From the NCBI GenBank assembly GCA_026388415.1, contig JAPLJV010000041.1, forward strand, positions 1-60,410: a stretch of 60,410 nt of DNA. The letters are read 5' to 3'. Both the position numbers and the translations under genes were made by a program. The notes beneath the pieces are model-generated. The model searched no databases. It saw nothing but the letters and a program-made list of their open reading frames with translations, and was not told where the DNA came from. Source of the stretch: Deltaproteobacteria bacterium (GTDB lineage Bacteria; Desulfobacterota; Syntrophia; Syntrophales; JACQWR01). Shown here piece after piece: positions 11,775-21,968 of the stretch. How positions within the stretch are numbered: position 1 is the first letter of the stretch; every line of letters starts with the position of its first letter.

Positions 11775-14633
11775 TTATTTTTTTAGTCCGTCCCCAGTGT
11801 CGTGAGCTGGCAGCAGAATGTCTTTGATTTGCCCGGGCTGATACGCTGTTGCCCACCGCCAGCGCCCGAAACCGCCCTGCGTATTGACGGCCTGCACCCA
11901 TTCGTCGAGATATCGCCGCTTTACCCGGTCTTGCTCCGTATCCTGTCCCTTTGTTTCGAGAATCAAGGTGTCACCCGACACCAGGCGAACCAGAAAGTCC
12001 GGCCGATATTTGCGCACCACGCCACGATAGACATAAAGCACCTCAAACCCCAGATGGTCATTTTTAACCCATGCCTCTACTGCGTCGCTTTCGTCCAGCG
12101 CAAAGGCGTCGGAGGCTTCCCACGTGCTGTCAAAGACGCAGACATTGATGTGCGACTTCTTGGTGCGTTCGCACGGCTTGCCGGTGTACCAGGTGCGCAT
12201 TTCTCCTGTGGCGCGAATGGGATGATCTCTATCGAAAATCGGCTCCAGCCGCTCCGTATTTTCATAGCGCACGAATTCCCAGATGTGCTGCACGACACGG
12301 GACATATTGAGCGTAATGATCAGGCGGCGGCGCAATTCGTCCTGGTAGAACAAGGGCGGATCGATCTTAATCTTGTCGCTGCCGATAAACTTCCCCACCA
12401 ACAGCACCAATTGAGCCAGCAGGAGTTCCTTGTTGCCCGGCCAGTCTCGCTTCATCTGGTCGAAAACGTCGCGCGCCGTCTCGAAGATGATCCGCTGCGT
12501 CCGAAACTCACGCGCCAGCCGTTCCAGTTCAATGCGGTTGATATTGGTTACGTCCGGCTTGCCCTCCAGGATGGGCGCCAGCTCCGCCACCTGAGCGGTT
12601 TGAGCGGCATCCAGCGTCAAGGACGGCATCTTTGAAAAATCCAGTGAAAGCGTCGGATGGAAAACGTGATCAATGCGCACCACGTTCGGCCAGCGGATTT
12701 CATACTGCCTCCTGGCCGGGTCGGGTTCAACCGCCGTCTTCGGCGCGGGTGGCGGCGGCGGGCCATCCTGTCCGCCCTCGTGGGGTAGAAAGGTGAACGG
12801 AACGCCGAAGATGTTGACATACTCCGGCTCGAATAGCTCTATTGCTTGACCTGTGTATGGATCAACGGTCTTTTTCACTTCATAGGAGGTGCGCCGCAGA
12901 CCTCGCCCGACCACCTGCTCACACAGCAACTGGCTGCTGAAGGCGCGCAGCCCCATGATGTGCGTCACGGTCTTGGCGTCCCAACCTTCGCTCAGCATCC
13001 CCACCGAAATCACGCTCCGGATTTTCTCGCCCGGCTGCCCCACCCGCCCTACCGTGTCCACTGTCCGTCGCAAAAACTCCGCCTGCTCGGCCTTGGTCAG
13101 TTTACGCTCCAGTATATCCTCGTCTGCGACGGCATCATCCGCATCCGTCACCGTCTCGACGAGTTCCTCCTTGGCTTCCGCTTGGGCAAGCACCTTGGAA
13201 TCAATATGCAGGATGCGCTCGGAATCGCACAGTTCGTCAATGTGAATGCGCCGGGAATCAAAGGCGTGTTTGACCCGCGCAGCCGTCTCGGTGCGGTTGC
13301 AGACCGTGATCATCACCGGCGGTGTCCGCAAGCCTGCTGCCGCCCATGCCTTGTACGCTTCGCGCCAGTCGTAGCCCAGCAGATAATAGGCATTCAGCAC
13401 CAGGTCGGGCAGCGGTTCCTCCGGATTTGCCGGGCGATTCAGGTCGTCCTTTACGTCCTGGTCGTTGTAAATGTGATACAGGCGTGATTTGTAGGTTTTG
13501 GCGTCCGGTACGGCATCGTCGCGCACCACCACACGCGGTGTCTTCACCAATCCGGATTCAATGGCATCGTTCAGGCCAAAGTCGCTCACGACCCAACCGA
13601 ACAGCGCTTCCTCGGAACTCTTCTTTCCCGATGGGGTGAGCGGGGTGGCGGAAAAGTCGTAGCACTGGAGGATTCCCCGCGTGCGATGAATGCGGTCCAG
13701 ACCGCCGATCCACACCGTCGCTTCCTGGGCGCTGTCCTTCAGGTCGCGGGCGCGCAGATACTTCCCTTCCGCATCCAGGTTCACACGCCAGGCATGATGC
13801 GCTTCGTCGTTGATCACCAGCAGGTTGCGCGCATTGGCCATTTCCTGCAAGACTTCACGGGTGTAGGCCTGGTCGCTCTTGACGCCGCGCTTGTCCACGC
13901 TGCGGCGTTTCTTGAGCTGCACCTCGCTTTCCCAACTCAAGGCATGCCAGTTGCGGATCAATACCTTACCCTGGCGCAGCTTGTCCAGCATACCCGCCGG
14001 CACAATGCGGAACTCCTCGTAGTAGTTCCCCGCCGCCGCGGGCGCCAGCACCGCCAGACGGTTCTTTACCGTCAGTCCGGGAGCGATGACCAAAATGTTC
14101 CTGGAAAAGCGGGCATCCTGCGGATAGGCCACCTTGTTCAGGATATGCCAGGCAATCACCATCGTCATGACAATGGTCTTGCCTGATCCGGTGGCCATCT
14201 TGCAGCACTGGCGGACGAACGCGCCGCCATCGCCGGGGATCTCTATCCCCACCCGCTCGGCGGCAGGGGCCTCGGTCAGCCAGATGAGGGCTTCCACCGC
14301 TTCCAATTGGCAGAAGAAGAATCGTCGCGATTCGAATTCCTCGGGATCGCACCAGTGTTCCAACAGGCGCTTGGTGATGCTGGAAACGCCCGGCCAGCCC
14401 GCCTCGCGCCACGCCTTGACGCGGGGGCGAATCTGATTGACCAGCGGAATTTCAACGAAAATGCCCGGATCGTCAAAGGCCCTGGAGTTCTCGGAGGCCA
14501 CCACATACCCGGCCGGCCGGCGGCCATCCGCAAGCGAGAAGAGCCGCGTCTCGCGCTCGTAGCGCCAGTGACGCGCCGGCTCCTCGTAGGGCGAGTTGAT
14601 GATCAGGCGGTCGATGGTGCTCTGGGCCATCAC
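11775..14633 (-). CDS. Type III-like restriction endonuclease/helicase subunit (BPTD_3080-like)
   Basis: This 952-aa protein joins a superfamily 2 DNA translocase to a nuclease. Motif I is MATGSGKTIVMTM, motif II is VINDEAHHAWR, motif III is DFSATPL, and motif VI is EQVVGRGLRRTSY. Near the C-terminus YRPDFLVRL followed by LILETKGQ forms a PD-(D/E)xK nuclease site. It would cut DNA lacking the modification made by the upstream methyltransferase, whose stop codon it overlaps by 4 bp. The length and motif set match the PGAP family name BPTD_3080 restriction endonuclease, recalled rather than searched. It lies at the left end of the defence island. Confidence 0.88.
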   Translation of the reverse strand: MMAQSTIDRLIINSPYEEPARHWRYERETRLFSLADGRRPAGYVVASENSRAFDDPGIFVEIPLVNQIRPRVKAWREAGWPGVSSITKRLLEHWCDPEEFESRRFFFCQLEAVEALIWLTEAPAAERVGIEIPGDGGAFVRQCCKMATGSGKTIVMTMVIAWHILNKVAYPQDARFSRNILVIAPGLTVKNRLAVLAPAAAGNYYEEFRIVPAGMLDKLRQGKVLIRNWHALSWESEVQLKKRRSVDKRGVKSDQAYTREVLQEMANARNLLVINDEAHHAWRVNLDAEGKYLRARDLKDSAQEATVWIGGLDRIHRTRGILQCYDFSATPLTPSGKKSSEEALFGWVVSDFGLNDAIESGLVKTPRVVVRDDAVPDAKTYKSRLYHIYNDQDVKDDLNRPANPEEPLPDLVLNAYYLLGYDWREAYKAWAAAGLRTPPVMITVCNRTETAARVKHAFDSRRIHIDELCDSERILHIDSKVLAQAEAKEELVETVTDADDAVADEDILERKLTKAEQAEFLRRTVDTVGRVGQPGEKIRSVISVGMLSEGWDAKTVTHIMGLRAFSSQLLCEQVVGRGLRRTSYEVKKTVDPYTGQAIELFEPEYVNIFGVPFTFLPHEGGQDGPPPPPAPKTAVEPDPARRQYEIRWPNVVRIDHVFHPTLSLDFSKMPSLTLDAAQTAQVAELAPILEGKPDVTNINRIELERLAREFRTQRIIFETARDVFDQMKRDWPGNKELLLAQLVLLVGKFIGSDKIKIDPPLFYQDELRRRLIITLNMSRVVQHIWEFVRYENTERLEPIFDRDHPIRATGEMRTWYTGKPCERTKKSHINVCVFDSTWEASDAFALDESDAVEAWVKNDHLGFEVLYVYRGVVRKYRPDFLVRLVSGDTLILETKGQDTEQDRVKRRYLDEWVQAVNTQGGFGRWRWATAYQPGQIKDILLPAHDTGDGLKK

Positions 14634-17230
14634 GCCACCTCCATCACTTTCAGGCTCTCGATCCCCCGGTCGTCCACGATCTTGACGGCGATACGCTGAT
14701 GCTTGCCTGGTTCAAAGGGCAGCGACACCGTGCCGCGATAGGCTTCGATCAGTTCTTCGTCAATCTCTGCTTTCAGGTTGCGGGCCAGTTTCGCCCAGCC
14801 TTCGCTATCTCCTGCCATCGGGAAAAAGACCTGGCGCGGGAACAGGCTGCGTCCGTCGTAGTCGGTGTCCAACAGCCAGACGGCGATACGGTCGCTGCCG
14901 CCGGACTCGATGCCGCCGGTCTTGGTGTTGTAATAGTCGAACCCCTGGACGCTGACGCGCCATTTCCCCATGTCCTCGCCGGCGGTTATCTTCTCCAGCC
15001 GCACATCGGGCTGACCGATGAGCCAGAAGGATTCGTTGCTGGCGCGCTTTTTCTTGAGGTCGTCGGTCAAAAGATCGGCGTTCATCTGGACCTTGAGGAA
15101 CTGCATCCCCGCGAGTTCCGGCTTCATCTCGTCAATATCCTTGGCCGCTTCCGGATCGAACTGGAAGGCCGCAAAGACCAGCAGTTTGGGCCGCGGCACC
15201 AGTGTGCGGGCTTCTTCCCAGGCGTGCTCCACTTGCCGCTGTTCTAATGGCGCATGCTCCGGGCCGAAAGAAACAACGATGCGCTGGGGGCTGTAAGCCG
15301 TGCCATCTTCTCGCACGCGGTCGGCTCCCTCGGCGCTGGGCCTGGTCTCGCCGTCGGCGTGCAGCCAGCGGCAGCCGGGCAGCGGCTCGATACGGGCAAA
15401 GCGGAAGTGCTGACCGGCCTTGCCCCGGATGCCAGCGCGTAAGAGTTCATCCCGCCATTCGCTCTGGCGCAGGGTTTCGCCGGAACGGGCGATGGAGGCG
15501 TCTGCTGACGGCGGGGCATCGCCGATAATCTCCTCCACCGACTTTACTGTGGGGGCGGGCACCGCCTCGACGGTGAAGGGGCCGCTGACGCGGTTGCGCT
15601 TGCGGTCCACCAGCGGCTGATCGTAGAGCGTTTCCGTGGCGGGCGGCTCGTTGTTGGCAACGGACTTGAGGGTGACGTGCGGCACGGTCTTGTAGACAAA
15701 ACCGCTACCCACGCCTTCCTGCGGGTGGGCCAGCTCGTAATAATCAAAGACGGCGGTCATCAACCGCTGTTTAGCCAGGGTGAGCGCCACGCGCGAGGTG
15801 TCGCAGGTAATCCACCTGCGTCCCCACTGCTCGGAAACAAAGGACGTAGTGCCCGAGCCACAGGTGATGTCCATCACCAGGTCGCCGGGGTCGGTCGTCA
15901 TCAGGATACAGCGTTGGATGACCTTAGTGGCAGTTTGAACTATATACAACTTTGCTGCCACGAATGTGCTGACTACCGTGTCAGACCAGAAATTGTTGAG
16001 CGCAACGACTGGAAAATCATCTGCATATCGTTTGTAGCAAAGAGTGGAGCCCACAATCAAAAGTCTATTTAGGTTTGCTAATCTGTCTAGTCCCTCAATA
16101 GTAGTCTTCCAGTTTTTGTCGTGTCCTGTGTCAAAGGTCTTTCCCTGAAATTTATATGGCACCGATGTGTTTGTTCTAAATCCCTGTGAAAACAAACTAG
16201 ACGACATGAAGCGCCGCCCTTCAGGTATTGGCTCTATTCCTATCAGTTCTCCTCTGGTTAACTTTCTCGATGTTTTATCTGCAAGTTCAATCCAAGTATA
16301 CGCGCTTTGCATGGTGCTTTCGGTACGTTCTGAATAAAGTTGATGATACTTTAGATGATTAGCATCATAGCAATACCACAGAAGATAATCGCTTATGGTG
16401 GCAAGATATTTATCTGTCTGACCACTTGTCTTTACAAATGGGATTAGTGATACAAAATTCCCTGCCCCAAACACCTCATCCATTAACTCCCGCACATGAT
16501 GGATGTTTTCATCGCTGATCTGCACAAAGACGCTGCCGGATTCGGTCAGCAGTTCGCGCTCCAGCAGCAGGCGGTCGCGCAGGTAGGTGAGGTAGGAGTG
16601 GATGCCCAGCTCCCAGGTGTCGCGGAAGGCGCGGATCTGCTCCGGCTCGGCAGTCAGGTCCTCGTCCTTGCCGTCCTTGACTTCGCGCTTATTGACGAAG
16701 GGCTGAAAGTTGGAGCCGTACTTGATGCCGTAAGGCGGGTCGATGAAGCTCATCTGGACCGTGCCCGCCATGCCTTCCTTTTCCAGCAAGGAGTTCATCA
16801 CCAGCAGGCTGTCGCCGGCAATGAAACGGTTGCTCCAACCGTGGGCGTGCTTGTAAAACTCGATGGCCTCGCGGAGGGGCGGGTTTTCTTCAACTGTCTG
16901 GAAGAGGGAAAGTTGTGTGATCGCGGCGGGGTCAGGGGCGCGGCGCACCGCCTCGATGATGGTGCGCGGGTCAATCCGCTCATGGACGTGCAGCGAAACC
17001 GTGGGCACGTCAAATGAGGTATGCTCAGCCTTCCCCGCCCACTGCAACTGCGGGTCCAGGTGCGGGTCGTAGGCGTAGGACTTTTTCTTCTCACCCGATT
17101 CCGGGTCGGTCTCAGGCGTCACCAGCCCCACGGGCGGATTGTTGACCCGCTGCTTATCCTTGTGCTCGTAAGTTTCGATCGGGCGTTTCCCGTCGCCTGC
17201 CTGCGTGCTTGCCGTCTTCTTACGTGCCAT
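14630..17230 (-). CDS. Site-specific DNA methyltransferase (beta-class, type III Mod-like)
   Basis: This 866-aa enzyme methylates adenine or cytosine N4 at the site recognised by its partner nuclease. The catalytic DPPY (motif IV) is at residues 164-167 and the AdoMet-binding motif DITCGSGT at about 453-460, the beta-class order. The segment between them is the target-recognition domain. A long C-terminal region (about 560-866) makes it larger than common Mod proteins and probably serves complex formation. AGGAGC precedes the ATG, and a good promoter lies 60 bp upstream. The central part, about 15915-16490, is clearly more AT-rich than both flanks and covers the recognition domain, which suggests replacement by recombination. 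Confidence 0.9.
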   Translation of the reverse strand: MARKKTASTQAGDGKRPIETYEHKDKQRVNNPPVGLVTPETDPESGEKKKSYAYDPHLDPQLQWAGKAEHTSFDVPTVSLHVHERIDPRTIIEAVRRAPDPAAITQLSLFQTVEENPPLREAIEFYKHAHGWSNRFIAGDSLLVMNSLLEKEGMAGTVQMSFIDPPYGIKYGSNFQPFVNKREVKDGKDEDLTAEPEQIRAFRDTWELGIHSYLTYLRDRLLLERELLTESGSVFVQISDENIHHVRELMDEVFGAGNFVSLIPFVKTSGQTDKYLATISDYLLWYCYDANHLKYHQLYSERTESTMQSAYTWIELADKTSRKLTRGELIGIEPIPEGRRFMSSSLFSQGFRTNTSVPYKFQGKTFDTGHDKNWKTTIEGLDRLANLNRLLIVGSTLCYKRYADDFPVVALNNFWSDTVVSTFVAAKLYIVQTATKVIQRCILMTTDPGDLVMDITCGSGTTSFVSEQWGRRWITCDTSRVALTLAKQRLMTAVFDYYELAHPQEGVGSGFVYKTVPHVTLKSVANNEPPATETLYDQPLVDRKRNRVSGPFTVEAVPAPTVKSVEEIIGDAPPSADASIARSGETLRQSEWRDELLRAGIRGKAGQHFRFARIEPLPGCRWLHADGETRPSAEGADRVREDGTAYSPQRIVVSFGPEHAPLEQRQVEHAWEEARTLVPRPKLLVFAAFQFDPEAAKDIDEMKPELAGMQFLKVQMNADLLTDDLKKKRASNESFWLIGQPDVRLEKITAGEDMGKWRVSVQGFDYYNTKTGGIESGGSDRIAVWLLDTDYDGRSLFPRQVFFPMAGDSEGWAKLARNLKAEIDEELIEAYRGTVSLPFEPGKHQRIAVKIVDDRGIESLKVMEVA

Positions 17231-17572: not shown

Positions 17573-19255
17573 ATGAGTACACCATCGCGCATTGAAATAG
17601 AGATGCAGGGCTTAGGGCGAATTCTGCTCAATCGTAATGTCAGCGTTCCAGTTTACCAAAGGTCATACGCGTGGGAAGATGAGCATGTTCGGGACTTACT
17701 CAATGATATCACTGAAGCGATAAGCGGCAGCGAGAATGAGTATTTCCTCGGATCTATTGTTACAACCAATAACAAATCTCCAAGAGCGGAAGTGGTTGAC
17801 GGGCAACAGCGCCTTGCCACAGCAACGATTCTCCTTGCCGCGATCCGTGATCACTTCTACATAACCAAGGACTATGAGCGGGCCAATACGATTTCTTCCG
17901 ACCTATTGAGCAAGAAAGACCTCAAGACCCTGACACTGATTCCGAAGCTAAAACTGAACGATGCAGATCATGATTTCTTTGCAAGTCGAATCCTTTTGCC
18001 ACCAACTGACCCAGGTAGAGGCATTGTGGCCACTAAGCCATCACATCATCGGATAGCACGTGCTGCATATCTTGCCGAAGGGCACATTGCGCGTATGGCC
18101 AAAGCAAAGGACGCAACAGAGCTCCTGACGGATCTCGTGGGCTATCTTACGGACTCTGTTAAGGTGATATGGGTTCAAGTGCCAGACGATGCGAACGCGT
18201 TTATGGTATTCGAAACGCTCAACGATCGAGGGTTGACCTTAGCTATTACAGATCTTCTGAAAAACCACCTCTTTGGTTTGTCAGGGAACAGACTTGGAGA
18301 GGTGCAACGTGCATGGGTAAGTATGACAAGCACCTTGGAGGCCGTGGACGAAGATGAGGTCGCGTTGACATTTATTCGACATTACGTCTCATCTTCGTAT
18401 GGATTTGTCCGTGAAAAAGAACTGTACGCTGAAATTAAGCGTCGTGTAGACACCCAGCCCAAAGCCGTGGCGTTTGCATCAGCACTGGAGAAGAATGCTC
18501 ACAAATATGCTGCAATTGTTAATACTGCCGATGCACTATGGGTCAAGTATGGTGATACATGCAGAAAGCACATGGAAACACTCAGAGCCCTCCGCATGAT
18601 ACAGATTCGTCCATTGATTTTGTCAGTGCTCGATACTTTAAAGGACTCTGAGGTAAAAGCAACACTTCGGAATATGGTGTCGTGGTCTGTTCGGTTTCTT
18701 GTGCATGGTGGCCTTGGTGGCGGTACGCTGGAGACACATTACTGCCAAGCCGCTAAAGAAATTCGTGCTGGGACACTTACAACAGCAAGCCAGTTGTTCA
18801 ATAAGCTCAAGTCGGTTATACCCAACGACGTTCAGTTTCGCGATGCTTTCGTAACTGCCGCTGTATCAAAAACATATCTGGCGCGGTATTATTTGCGCGC
18901 CTTGGAGCAGCATCGGCGAGGAGACAGTGACCCAGAACTGGTTCCTAATGACAATGCTGATGTGATCAACCTAGAACACGTGCTTCCTCAAACACCTTCC
19001 ACAGCTTGGAAACACATTCCGCTTGAAGAACAAGTAGTTTTGGTGAAACGGCTCGGGAACCTTGCTTTAATGAAGACAAAAATCAACACAAAGGTGGGCA
19101 ATGACGGATATCCATTCAAGAAGCAATACTACAGAGGCTCACAATATGCACTCACCTCAAGCATTGCTACGGAGTCGACATGGGATCGAGCTGCCATTGA
19201 TCGAAGGCAGAACATCATGGCCGATCTCGCAGTTAAAACATGGCCAGTCAAGTGA
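17573..19255 (+). CDS. GmrSD-like DUF262/DUF1524 defence nuclease
   Basis: This 560-aa protein has an N-terminal DUF262 domain (ParB/Srx-like NTPase) with VPVYQRSYAWE at residues 25-35, FLGSIV, and DGQQR at 76-80. The C-terminal DUF1524 HNH-type nuclease has NLEHVLPQ at about 466 and then LGNLALM...N. This fusion matches single-chain GmrSD/BrxU type IV restriction enzymes, which cut DNA with modified cytosines using NTP. A clear AAAGGAG precedes the ATG. Two short genes follow on the same strand, with a hairpin between. Base composition is more AT-rich than the restriction gene beside it. Phage defence is inferred from family and location. Confidence 0.88.
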   Translation: MSTPSRIEIEMQGLGRILLNRNVSVPVYQRSYAWEDEHVRDLLNDITEAISGSENEYFLGSIVTTNNKSPRAEVVDGQQRLATATILLAAIRDHFYITKDYERANTISSDLLSKKDLKTLTLIPKLKLNDADHDFFASRILLPPTDPGRGIVATKPSHHRIARAAYLAEGHIARMAKAKDATELLTDLVGYLTDSVKVIWVQVPDDANAFMVFETLNDRGLTLAITDLLKNHLFGLSGNRLGEVQRAWVSMTSTLEAVDEDEVALTFIRHYVSSSYGFVREKELYAEIKRRVDTQPKAVAFASALEKNAHKYAAIVNTADALWVKYGDTCRKHMETLRALRMIQIRPLILSVLDTLKDSEVKATLRNMVSWSVRFLVHGGLGGGTLETHYCQAAKEIRAGTLTTASQLFNKLKSVIPNDVQFRDAFVTAAVSKTYLARYYLRALEQHRRGDSDPELVPNDNADVINLEHVLPQTPSTAWKHIPLEEQVVLVKRLGNLALMKTKINTKVGNDGYPFKKQYYRGSQYALTSSIATESTWDRAAIDRRQNIMADLAVKTWPVK

Positions 19256-19273
19256 GAAATGAGCCAATAAATC

Positions 19274-19308
19274 CACCGGACCCTCGTTCCTCGGGCCGGT
19301 GATCTTTT
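19274..19308 (+). terminator. Hairpin with short T-run after the DUF262 gene
   Basis: CACCGG-A-CCC pairs with GGG-CCGGTG around an 8-base loop, followed by ATCTTTT. It lies between the DUF262 stop (19255) and the Cys4 mini-protein start (19335). It could terminate part of the transcripts and set a lower level for the two downstream genes. Confidence 0.45.
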
Positions 19309-19334
19309 CGTTGTGTGCAGAGGGGGCAGTAAAA

Positions 19335-19544
19335 ATGCGTGAAAAGATCACAATACCTGCTATGCGCGAACGCGACATGCGTGATTTCCTAAAGGACCAT
19401 GGTGAGATCGAATGCGTATTTTGTGGGACTACCCTCACCTGGAACGATATCGGAGGGGTCTTTGTGAAAGATGGTGGCCCAACAGTCGTGTGCGCAGCAA
19501 CTGAATGCATTGAGCGCGCACGACAAGGTGGTACAGATGGATAA
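19335..19544 (+). CDS. Cys4 mini-protein (putative zinc ribbon), function unknown
   Basis: This 69-aa protein starts at an ATG preceded by GAGGGGG. It carries C27-x2-C30 (ECVFCG) and C53-x4-C58 (VVCAATEC), a plausible structural zinc site, after a charged helix (REKITIPAMRERDMRDFLKDHG). I do not recognise the family. The stop codon overlaps the start of the next gene by 8 bp, so the two are translationally coupled and probably act together. It may be a small regulator or an adaptor for the membrane-bound S1 protein. A longer frame from 19299 is possible but has no ribosome-binding site. Confidence 0.6.
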   Translation: MREKITIPAMRERDMRDFLKDHGEIECVFCGTTLTWNDIGGVFVKDGGPTVVCAATECIERARQGGTDG

Positions 19545-21366
19545 CCTACCAGAAATCCTGGAGTTCATTTGGTCCAAGGGTTGGATAGCGGTTCTCGTTG
19601 TCATTCTTATGCTTGTAATTCTTGATCCTGATCGCGCGGAGAAGATCAAAGAAATCTTCTTCCTGCCAGCGTTCCGGTTCTTCAAGCGAGGATCACGGCA
19701 GTACATGGCGGCAAAGATTGGATACACGTCAACGCAGTTTCTGAAACGCGAATTGCTTCCGTACTTGCCGTCAACGGCAAACGTGACAATTGTGATCAAG
19801 TGGGTCAAATCTCCGTCAGACCCTGTCCTGACGGAAAATGGTAATCTCATCTTATGCATGCGCGAGACCAACGACCAGACACGCAATGTCTTGGCTGCAA
19901 CACAAGCTGCCCTTCCTCGTGTTGTATGCACAACATTGAGACCCAACATCCACAAGGATCTTGAAGAAGCCATGGACCTGACCTTGCTTCAGAAGCTCGC
20001 GTCCGCACTTGGCAAGCATGCCAAGCCCGTCTTCCAACGGTATTTCTTGGGCTCGCGCACAGAGGACAGCGAGAACCTCCGAGATATATTCTCAAAACTC
20101 GTAGAATTGGACGCACACGGCACTTTCGTCGCTATTTTCTTGGAGGAGTTAGACGAGTTAGGTGAACGCTTATACACAGATGGTGACAGTTCTGACCATA
20201 CAGGGGAGATTATGCGTTTCCTTGAGTTCTTGCTGGCAGAGGCACGGCGACAGGAGCATGAGGAGATTAAGCTCGACTACTTCTCTTCGGTCTTCAGCGT
20301 AGGCATCATCATATTAGCCGCATCCGACAAGGTGCAAAGAGAAGGGGTGTCACCGTATGTCAATCGAATTGACCAAAAAGTGCGTCAAGGGTGTGACTCC
20401 ATTTACATCATCGCGTATCAGAAAGCATCGCGCTTTCTGGAGAAACTACTACAAGTCCTGGAAGGTGACAATCGCTTTACCTTGGCAAAAGTTGCAGTCC
20501 CACGCGTCCACAACCCAGTAACACAGCGACGCGAACAATGGAATATTGCCCAATTGCGACGGAGCCCACTGTTCTCGGACACGGACTTTGCAGAGCGTGC
20601 TGCAGCGAACGGTCTGACATCAGGAGACGAGGTCGAAGGACAGGTTTTAGATGTTTCCGCGACACAGGCGTTCGTCGACGCACTTGGTCTCAACGCGATT
20701 ATCCAAAGAGGTGACTGCGGGTGGCGGACAGTAAAAGATTGCAGGGACGTTATCTCAAATGGCGAGCGAAGGAAATTCATTCTGTCTTCAATAGACACTG
20801 AAAGAGGTAAACTAGTCTTATCTTTGCGCTTTCCAAATACTGATCCATGGAAGCGAGCCGACCTGCCACTCGTCGGACAAAGGGTAGAAGTAAAGGCGAG
20901 TTTCTGCGATGGGGTGAACTACTATTGCCATACTAGCGATGATGTTGAAGTGCTGCTGCCGCGATGTGAAATATCTTGGACCGATCATGTAGATCCGGCA
21001 GATACCGCTTTGGTCGGACAGCAGCTGTCACTTGTGATCTTCGAAAAGAATGACGATGAACGAATTCTGAAGGGAAGCATACGTCAGCAAGAAGGAGATC
21101 CTTGGCCCCTAATACACAAACGTCTTCTTAAAGGAACGCAACTTCGTGGGACAGTCGTTGAAGTTACACCCCTTTTTGTGCGCGTGAAGCTGCCCGATGG
21201 GCTTCAAGGCATCTTGCCCGACTCATCCCTACGAAAAGCAGGCTTTGAGTTAGCAGACTTCACAAAGACAGTAGTGGAGGGGCAGGGATTAGATGTCGTG
21301 GTCACCAAGGTTTTCTTAGAAAAGCGCCGTATACGCTTGGATTTGATGCGCAACGTAGACGATTAA
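19537..21366 (+). CDS. Membrane-anchored protein with three C-terminal S1-like domains
   Basis: From the ATG at 19537 (AAGGTGG seven bases upstream, 8-bp overlap with the Cys4 gene) the protein has 609 aa. A single membrane helix (GWIAVLVVILMLVILDP, about 14-31) is followed by a predicted cytosolic helical region of some 320 residues that I do not recognise. Three S1-like OB folds follow at about 362-437, 445-520 and 530-605. The first two end in the DPW signature seen between repeats of ribosomal protein S1 (NTDPWKRADLPLVGQ, EGDPWPLIHKRLLKGTQ), and the third has GILPDSSL. S1 domains bind single-stranded RNA, so the protein may hold RNA or ribosomes at the membrane. The link to defence is inferred from context. 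A frame from 19471 is also open but starts inside the Cys4 gene. Confidence 0.7.
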   Translation: MDNLPEILEFIWSKGWIAVLVVILMLVILDPDRAEKIKEIFFLPAFRFFKRGSRQYMAAKIGYTSTQFLKRELLPYLPSTANVTIVIKWVKSPSDPVLTENGNLILCMRETNDQTRNVLAATQAALPRVVCTTLRPNIHKDLEEAMDLTLLQKLASALGKHAKPVFQRYFLGSRTEDSENLRDIFSKLVELDAHGTFVAIFLEELDELGERLYTDGDSSDHTGEIMRFLEFLLAEARRQEHEEIKLDYFSSVFSVGIIILAASDKVQREGVSPYVNRIDQKVRQGCDSIYIIAYQKASRFLEKLLQVLEGDNRFTLAKVAVPRVHNPVTQRREQWNIAQLRRSPLFSDTDFAERAAANGLTSGDEVEGQVLDVSATQAFVDALGLNAIIQRGDCGWRTVKDCRDVISNGERRKFILSSIDTERGKLVLSLRFPNTDPWKRADLPLVGQRVEVKASFCDGVNYYCHTSDDVEVLLPRCEISWTDHVDPADTALVGQQLSLVIFEKNDDERILKGSIRQQEGDPWPLIHKRLLKGTQLRGTVVEVTPLFVRVKLPDGLQGILPDSSLRKAGFELADFTKTVVEGQGLDVVVTKVFLEKRRIRLDLMRNVDD

Positions 21367-21523
21367 TGAGCACGCAACAATCGCATTGAGCACTGTGGGA
21401 AACCCGGGGCGGGCTCACCGAGGCTCATGCGTGCCGTTACACATAAAAAAAGAAAGACTGATTAAAAGTTATATCCTGGTTCTGGTACAATATGTTATTA
21501 CTATAAGCGAGGAGATATTTTTT

Positions 21524-21715
21524 ATGCAAGGTATACAATATGTTACAGATGAAAAAGGGCAAAAAGTAGCAGTGCAAATTAACCTGAGAAAATTTGGTGA
21601 GATTTGGGAAGATTTTTTCGATAATTTACTTTCAAGGCAACGTGCAGAGGAACCAAGAGAATCTATTGAATCCGTCAGGGAACGGCTAAAAAAACAAGGC
21701 AAGTTGCATGTCTAA
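21524..21715 (+). CDS. Short antitoxin of a RelE/ParE-type pair
   Basis: From the ATG at 21524 (GAGGAG upstream) the protein has 63 aa: MQGIQYVTDEKGQKVAVQINL, then a helix-rich charged tail. It resembles the toxin-wrapping part of Phd/RelB-type antitoxins but is too short for a separate DNA-binding domain. It overlaps the toxin gene by 8 bp (ATGTCTAA), the usual coupling. The pair closes the defence island on the right. A longer frame from 21386 lacks a ribosome-binding site and is not favoured. Confidence 0.75.
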   Translation: MQGIQYVTDEKGQKVAVQINLRKFGEIWEDFFDNLLSRQRAEEPRESIESVRERLKKQGKLHV

Positions 21716-21968
21716 ATACCTGATAACTTTTGCCCGATCTGCCCGTAAAGAACTGGAAGCTCTCGATGTGAAACTGGTGAATAGGATTTTTCCTAAAATT
21801 GAAAATCTTTCTATAGAACCTCGACCTGCAGGTTGTCGAAAATTGGCCGGCAATAAGCATCTCTGGCGGTTAAGAGTCGGTGATTACCGCATTGTTTATT
21901 CAATCGATGACGATAAAAATCTCGTAGACATCATTGCTGTGCGTGACAGAAAAGAAGCATACAGATAG
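21708..21968 (+). CDS. RelE/ParE-family toxin
   Basis: This 86-aa protein begins MSKYLITFARSARKELEALD and ends LVDIIAVRDRKEAYR. It has the RelE-fold core KLAGNKHLWRLRVGDYRIVYSIDDD, with the conserved basic residues (R in LWRLRVGDYRI and the C-terminal R-x-R-K) expected for a ribosome-dependent mRNA interferase. Antitoxin and toxin are in the usual order and overlap. It probably stabilises the island or acts in abortive infection; neither is shown directly. Confidence 0.9.
   Translation: MSKYLITFARSARKELEALDVKLVNRIFPKIENLSIEPRPAGCRKLAGNKHLWRLRVGDYRIVYSIDDDKNLVDIIAVRDRKEAYR

Follow-up and report, generated by a model that had tools for sequence, protein, structure and literature searches.

Co-conserved genes for a Cys4 mini-protein and a membrane-anchored protein with S1 repeats and a predicted Alba-like domain form a two-gene unit beside a GmrSD-like nuclease gene

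In the present study, we analysed three rightward genes in a 60,410-nt stretch of DNA (the window) from a Deltaproteobacteria bacterium (GenBank assembly GCA_026388415.1, genome size 2.79 Mb; contig JAPLJV010000041.1, C41), which an earlier note on the same DNA had joined into one candidate defence system. These genes encode a DUF262/DUF1524 nuclease, a mini-protein with four cysteines (Cys4) and a membrane-anchored protein with S1 domains. Comparison with other genomes showed that the Cys4 and membrane-protein genes are a strongly co-conserved two-gene unit, and that the nuclease beside them is probably merely a neighbour.

All three open reading frames (ORFs) of the earlier note are real, and its description of the last two holds at the level of single nucleotides: the Cys4 gene (19335..19544, plus strand, as for all features below unless noted) encodes 69 amino acids with four Cys, and the membrane-protein gene (19537..21366, 609 amino acids) shares its first 8 nt with the end of the Cys4 gene, with a Shine–Dalgarno-like AAGG run at 19525-19528 before it. 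Profile and tblastn searches recovered the conserved N-terminal part of the membrane protein, and with it the pair, at five further independent loci. Three of these are in bacterial metagenome-assembled genomes (MAGs), namely G018, the Deltaproteobacteria MAG G369 (contig JAPLJC010000050) and the Syntrophaceae MAG G455 (contig PLMV01000200), a member of the order to which the window genome belongs; the others are on a soil contig and in Marinitoga camini virus 1. The soil DNA, with the proteins it encodes, is present in two MAGs with the labels Gemmatimonadetes and Spartobacteria, and we counted it once. Pairwise BLASTP among the first five known members gave E-values of about 1e-9 to 1e-25. 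At all six loci a four-Cys ORF lies directly upstream of the membrane protein, overlapping it or at most 34 nt away: the overlap is 8 nt in the window, an ATGA in G018, and 1 nt in both G369 and the phage, and the gap is about 5 nt in the soil contig and 34 nt in G455. As five other loci show the same order of the two genes, the pairing is not due to chance. Moreover, the Cys4 and membrane-protein profiles match the same 3 of the 155 genomes of the order, and no Cys4 match occurs without its partner. Two extra matches to the membrane-protein profile (G453 and G459) were marginal with E = 9e-4, and that of G453 was rejected as a relative, lying within the miaA gene.

The nuclease does not follow the pair. 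The earlier note had proposed that the co-occurrence of the Cys4/S1 pair with DUF262 genes be scored, and no DUF262 gene adjoins the pair at any of the five other loci, with the qualifications that the G018 contig is only 5.5 kb long, the G455 pair is close to the end of its contig, and our view of the phage locus comes from its deposited annotation. When the carrier genomes were searched as a whole, DUF262 genes were found in G369 and G018 on other contigs, and none was found in G455 or the two soil MAGs. Conversely, two other genomes of the order have a HEC-06 relative (the nuclease family of the window gene, see below), and both are without the pair. Homologues of the pair without a DUF262 gene are also what the earlier note had named as refuting its idea, and for the three-gene module this is the case. 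Hence, of the proposed single system of nuclease, Cys4 and S1 protein, the Cys4/S1 part is supported and the link to the nuclease is not.

In the Cys4 mini-protein, residues C27, C30, C53 and C58 are invariant in all six homologues, and the protein, a putative zinc ribbon, would bind zinc through them. The best match of the Cys4 profile in the PDB was the Hsp33 redox zinc domain, which is not significant (E = 0.07); a redox-sensing role could be considered for Cys4.

The membrane protein carries a single strongly hydrophobic stretch at residues 11-29 (19567..19623, mean Kyte–Doolittle hydropathy 2.46), in agreement with the one membrane helix first described, and an N-terminal hydrophobic anchor is common to all six homologues. 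A conserved and mostly helical region without confident fold match follows at residues about 45-240 (19669..20256). At the other end, the three S1 domains of the earlier description were recovered by Pfam (S1, E = 1.4e-17) and positioned by a repeat hidden Markov model (HMM) as well: domain 1 at residues 358-432 (20608..20832), domain 2 at 448-518 (20878..21090) and domain 3 at 528-606 (21118..21354), and a DPW linker comes after each of the first two. The S1 count differs from locus to locus, with three in the window, one in G369, five in the soil contig (including one that is weak by HMM), and zero in G018, G455 and the phage; S1 domains are optional within this family. We also considered whether the third ORF is a ribosomal S1 gene, since its three repeats and DPW linkers resemble the repeats and NPW linkers of the genome's own rpsA. 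This was ruled out, because a separate rpsA-like gene with six S1 domains lies elsewhere in the same genome; moreover, the window protein scores 104 bits against the NCBIfam rpsA model, below the cut-off of 577, and in contrast to bS1 it has a membrane helix and only three repeats, in a family where the S1 number is variable and often zero.

Between the membrane helix and the S1 domains, the earlier note saw about 320 residues of unrecognised sequence. This remains correct in that no Pfam model matches there, but a modelled relative points to an Alba-like fold in part of it. The model used for fold searches was an AlphaFold model of the G369 member, built with an alignment of five members (the phage row was left out), with a predicted local distance difference test (pLDDT) score of 79.6 and a predicted template modelling (pTM) score of 0.73. 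Residues 246-355 of this model have the beta-alpha-beta-alpha-beta-beta topology shared with Alba, Rpp20/Rpp25 and IF3 C-terminal domains, and this order of secondary structures is that of the Alba fold. VIA-align superposed the region on Alba chains with Z from 12.0 to about 10 and a root-mean-square deviation of 2-3 over about 80-94 residues, ranking a series of Alba proteins first, then Rpp20/25 and IF3 C-terminal domains. Foldseek against the PDB likewise returned many Alba chains, most of them at a probability of 0.9-1.0 (up to 1.00), with template modelling (TM) scores of 0.57-0.78 normalized to the target. In hhalign, the family aligned in the same register with archaeal Alba (PYVKRA...IYLLSRGK of the family versus NYVLAA...IVIKARGRA of Alba), with a score of 17.5 that 1 of 200 column shuffles reached and with low hhalign probability; of the four Alba sequences used here, Sso10b agrees letter for letter with the PDB and 8xao was taken from it. 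The family proteins differ from all these domains by their membrane-anchored multidomain build and their bacterial or phage setting. Other matches to the G369 model were rejected: SpoVS and GNAT rank below Alba, and in other parts of the model M1 aminopeptidase (Z about 7.5) and exopolyphosphatase (Foldseek E = 0.04, TM 0.14) are at noise level. By comparison with this relative, the window protein would hold an Alba/IF3-C-like nucleic-acid-binding domain at residues about 247-345 (20275..20571), immediately followed by S1 domain 1 from residue 358.

The distribution of the pair is patchy. It occurs in the 3/155 genomes of the order mentioned above, in 1/29 genomes of the class of G369 and in 1/309 genomes sampled from the phylum of a soil MAG. 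A first scan of genome contigs with the window protein gave no match, four queries from the membrane-protein region matched nothing in plasmids by tblastn, and six queries used for pattern scans found no relative among viral contigs. The pair is carried by at least one phage, and probably by two. In Marinitoga camini virus 1 it corresponds to UF08_10/UF08_11, between the ssb and terminase genes, and the protein A0A8S5TTG3 (346 amino acids) of Siphoviridae sp. ct5jB2 matches the fold of the G369 model over its full length (TM 0.71/0.73, E = 4e-19). In G018, a trypsin-like protease gene is directly upstream of the pair, with a tyrosine recombinase before it, and this locus is possibly a mobile element. 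The same stretch (L009, 1-5528) continues behind the pair with a gene for a Schlafen/AlbA_2 protein, and all of these genes are on one strand. A putative phage metallopeptidase gene (PF18894; L010, 2207-2665) was seen about 2 kb upstream of the G369 pair. As a side observation, the pair-bearing DNA is identical in the two soil MAGs (L025 and L026) labelled as different phyla, and at least one of these contigs is probably misbinned.

Based on these data, we probably deal with a membrane-tethered Alba(+S1) RNA-binding protein and its co-conserved zinc mini-protein, because the Alba/IF3-C-like fold seen in the G369 model runs into the S1 repeats wherever these are present. In the explanation we propose, the overlapping or closely spaced genes would ensure that the zinc-ribbon mini-protein and the membrane protein are produced together. 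The latter consists of an N-terminal helix in the membrane, a long helix, the conserved helical region, the Alba-like domain and sometimes one to five S1 domains. As basic residues follow the membrane helix, the Alba and S1 domains are most likely on the cytoplasmic side. They would there bind RNA or RNA–protein complexes (transcripts or ribosomes, for example) close to the inner surface of the membrane. The tethered Alba-like and optional S1 domains are likely the business end of the protein, given the fold in the G369 model and the S1 counts across loci. The zinc protein would most likely be a partner or switch of the membrane protein; we infer both that RNA is the ligand and that the two proteins are in physical contact. 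With helix, Alba-like and S1 domains together, the protein does look built to hold RNA at the membrane, as first suggested. The pair would move horizontally, phages included, and would most likely shield its carrier from competing phages or elements by RNA capture or sensing.

Taken as a whole, a mobile accessory pair of a membrane RNA-binding protein and a zinc partner, protective for its carrier, is the reading we favour, at slightly better than even. Its structural half is well supported. Computation shows the pair and its co-occurrence, the membrane helix, the S1 domains, the Alba-like fold in a relative, the patchy spread and the carriage by phages. The protective role alone, be it defence or superinfection exclusion, is a guess that we make tentatively and would place below even. 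It is unlikely, in our estimate, that the pair is a new immunity unit, phage-borne and chromosomal, in which the membrane-tethered Alba/S1 protein, gated by the zinc mini-protein, captures invader RNA or ribosomes translating it at the inner membrane, different targets being matched by different numbers of S1 domains.

Several results weigh against the favoured reading. The AlphaFold model of the window protein itself was poor (pLDDT 54.7) and was not used for fold searches, so that its Alba-like region was modelled in G369 and transferred by alignment; the Foldseek E-values to Alba were 0.1-0.6, and the Pfam Alba model matched none of the six family members, for which reason we speak of an Alba-like domain and not of Pfam Alba. 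No enzymatic motif was recognised in the membrane protein. The match in ct5jB2 was made at the level of the membrane protein. Finally, at half of the six loci, namely G369, G455 and the soil contig, the pair is situated amid metabolic genes, with no known defence genes or PADLOC matches of note. The genes around the pair in the window are those of a type III-like restriction pair, of HEC-06 and of a RelB/ParE-type pair.

Among alternatives, the pair could work like a toxin–antitoxin or abortive-infection pair, where the membrane protein, by attaching to RNA or ribosomes or by damaging the membrane, would halt growth unless restrained by the zinc mini-protein. The small gene overlapping a larger second gene, the strict co-occurrence, the phage carriage and the patchy spread would all agree with this, and type II toxin–antitoxin pairs and membrane defence pairs with a small partner are in general similar in that a small gene is coupled to a larger effector-like gene on mobile DNA. 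However, these systems share no family with the Cys4/membrane pair, no known toxin fold or motif is present, and the size and the RNA-binding domains of the membrane protein would be unusual for such toxins; we consider this alternative improbable.

A different possibility is that the pair benefits the phage, aiding phage or prophage replication or controlling host translation at the membrane, and that chromosomal copies are remnants of prophages or elements. Its location between ssb and terminase in Marinitoga camini virus 1 and the second viral homologue in ct5jB2 fit such a role, as does the fact that S1 and IF3-C/Alba folds both occur in translation proteins. Nevertheless, no phage genes are directly beside the pair at the G369, G455 and soil loci (the phage-type metallopeptidase in G369 being 2 kb off), and a service to the phage seems doubtful to us.

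The membrane protein could also be an ordinary cellular tether for mRNA or the degradosome, with a role like RNase Y or the RNase E anchor. Membrane helix, long helix and RNA-binding domains match the layout of such scaffolds, and the neighbours at three loci are metabolic, but the protein has no KH, HD or recognised nuclease domain as in RNase Y-type scaffolds, it is phage-borne with a zinc mini-protein as partner, and its occurrence is too patchy for a core function, which makes this explanation very unlikely. The three-gene module, with the GmrSD-like nuclease directed at modified DNA and the Cys4/S1 pair sensing or retaining RNA at the membrane, is the least probable of all: a common strand, a gap of 80 bp and a shared low G+C content at third codon positions (GC3) suggest that the genes may have arrived together, but no DUF262 gene is beside the pair elsewhere, the pair is absent from the two other genomes of the order with a HEC-06 relative, the nuclease and Cys4 genes are separated by a hairpin with a short T-run, and HEC-06 is listed as a system of one gene, for which antiviral activity has been reported (PMC12988326).

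The nuclease gene (17573..19255, 560 amino acids), judged here an independent neighbour of the mobile pair, is what the earlier note took it to be. Its single intact chain matches Pfam GmrSD_N (E = 6.8e-34) and GmrSD_C (E = 1.9e-21), and it matches the PADLOC model HEC-06 (PDLC04157) over its full length with E = 5.9e-189; DUF262 and DUF1524 in one full-length chain place it in HEC-06/GmrSD, together with the motifs DGQQR and LEHVLPQ. As a HEC-06 protein it is ordinary, and the sole novelty is its neighbour, which is itself not conserved. The hairpin behind it is G+C-rich (CACCGGACCC/GGGCCGGTG then ATCTTTTC, 19274..19301) and is possibly a weak terminator or attenuator, not being significant against shuffles (z = -1.4). 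Upstream of Cys4, we also noted a perfect 11-nt inverted repeat (19299-19309/19341-19351) which could compete with this hairpin and might be an attenuator. GC3 is 0.47, 0.44 and 0.53 for the nuclease, Cys4 and S1 genes, as compared with 0.62-0.74 for most flanking genes, and no flanking direct repeats marking an insertion were found.

Divergent from the DUF262 gene, a type III-like restriction–modification pair lies on the minus strand at 11775-17230 (mod with N6_N4_Mtase, res with a weak ResIII match), and its GC3 of 0.71-0.74 is unlike that of the DUF262 and Cys4/S1 genes. A strong G+C-rich hairpin follows the S1 gene at 21360-21440 (z = -2.5, single copy in the window), and genes for a RelB-like antitoxin and a ParE/RelE toxin, of lower G+C content, are located just downstream of the S1 gene at 21527-21968. 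A match to the Rfam fluoride riboswitch, antisense inside a gene, was below threshold (17.8 versus 34 bits) and was taken as chance.

In the libraries and literature searched, the Cys4/membrane pair is a rare, undescribed two-gene family. Outside S1 it is unmatched in Pfam, PHROGs and NCBIfam, and PADLOC-DB 2.0 gave no match for the proteins scanned, namely the window Cys4, the window membrane protein and the five membrane homologues. A literature search found no description of the pair; as most subscription literature was outside its scope, a system named elsewhere is conceivable. Our analysis replaces a mistaken three-gene system by a small and testable two-gene family, which is phage-borne and combines a membrane helix with Alba-like and S1 domains and a zinc mini-protein. 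If the pair protects against phages, immunity would here work in an unusual way, through RNA at the membrane; if it benefits the phage instead, it would give the phage an unusual hold on host translation.

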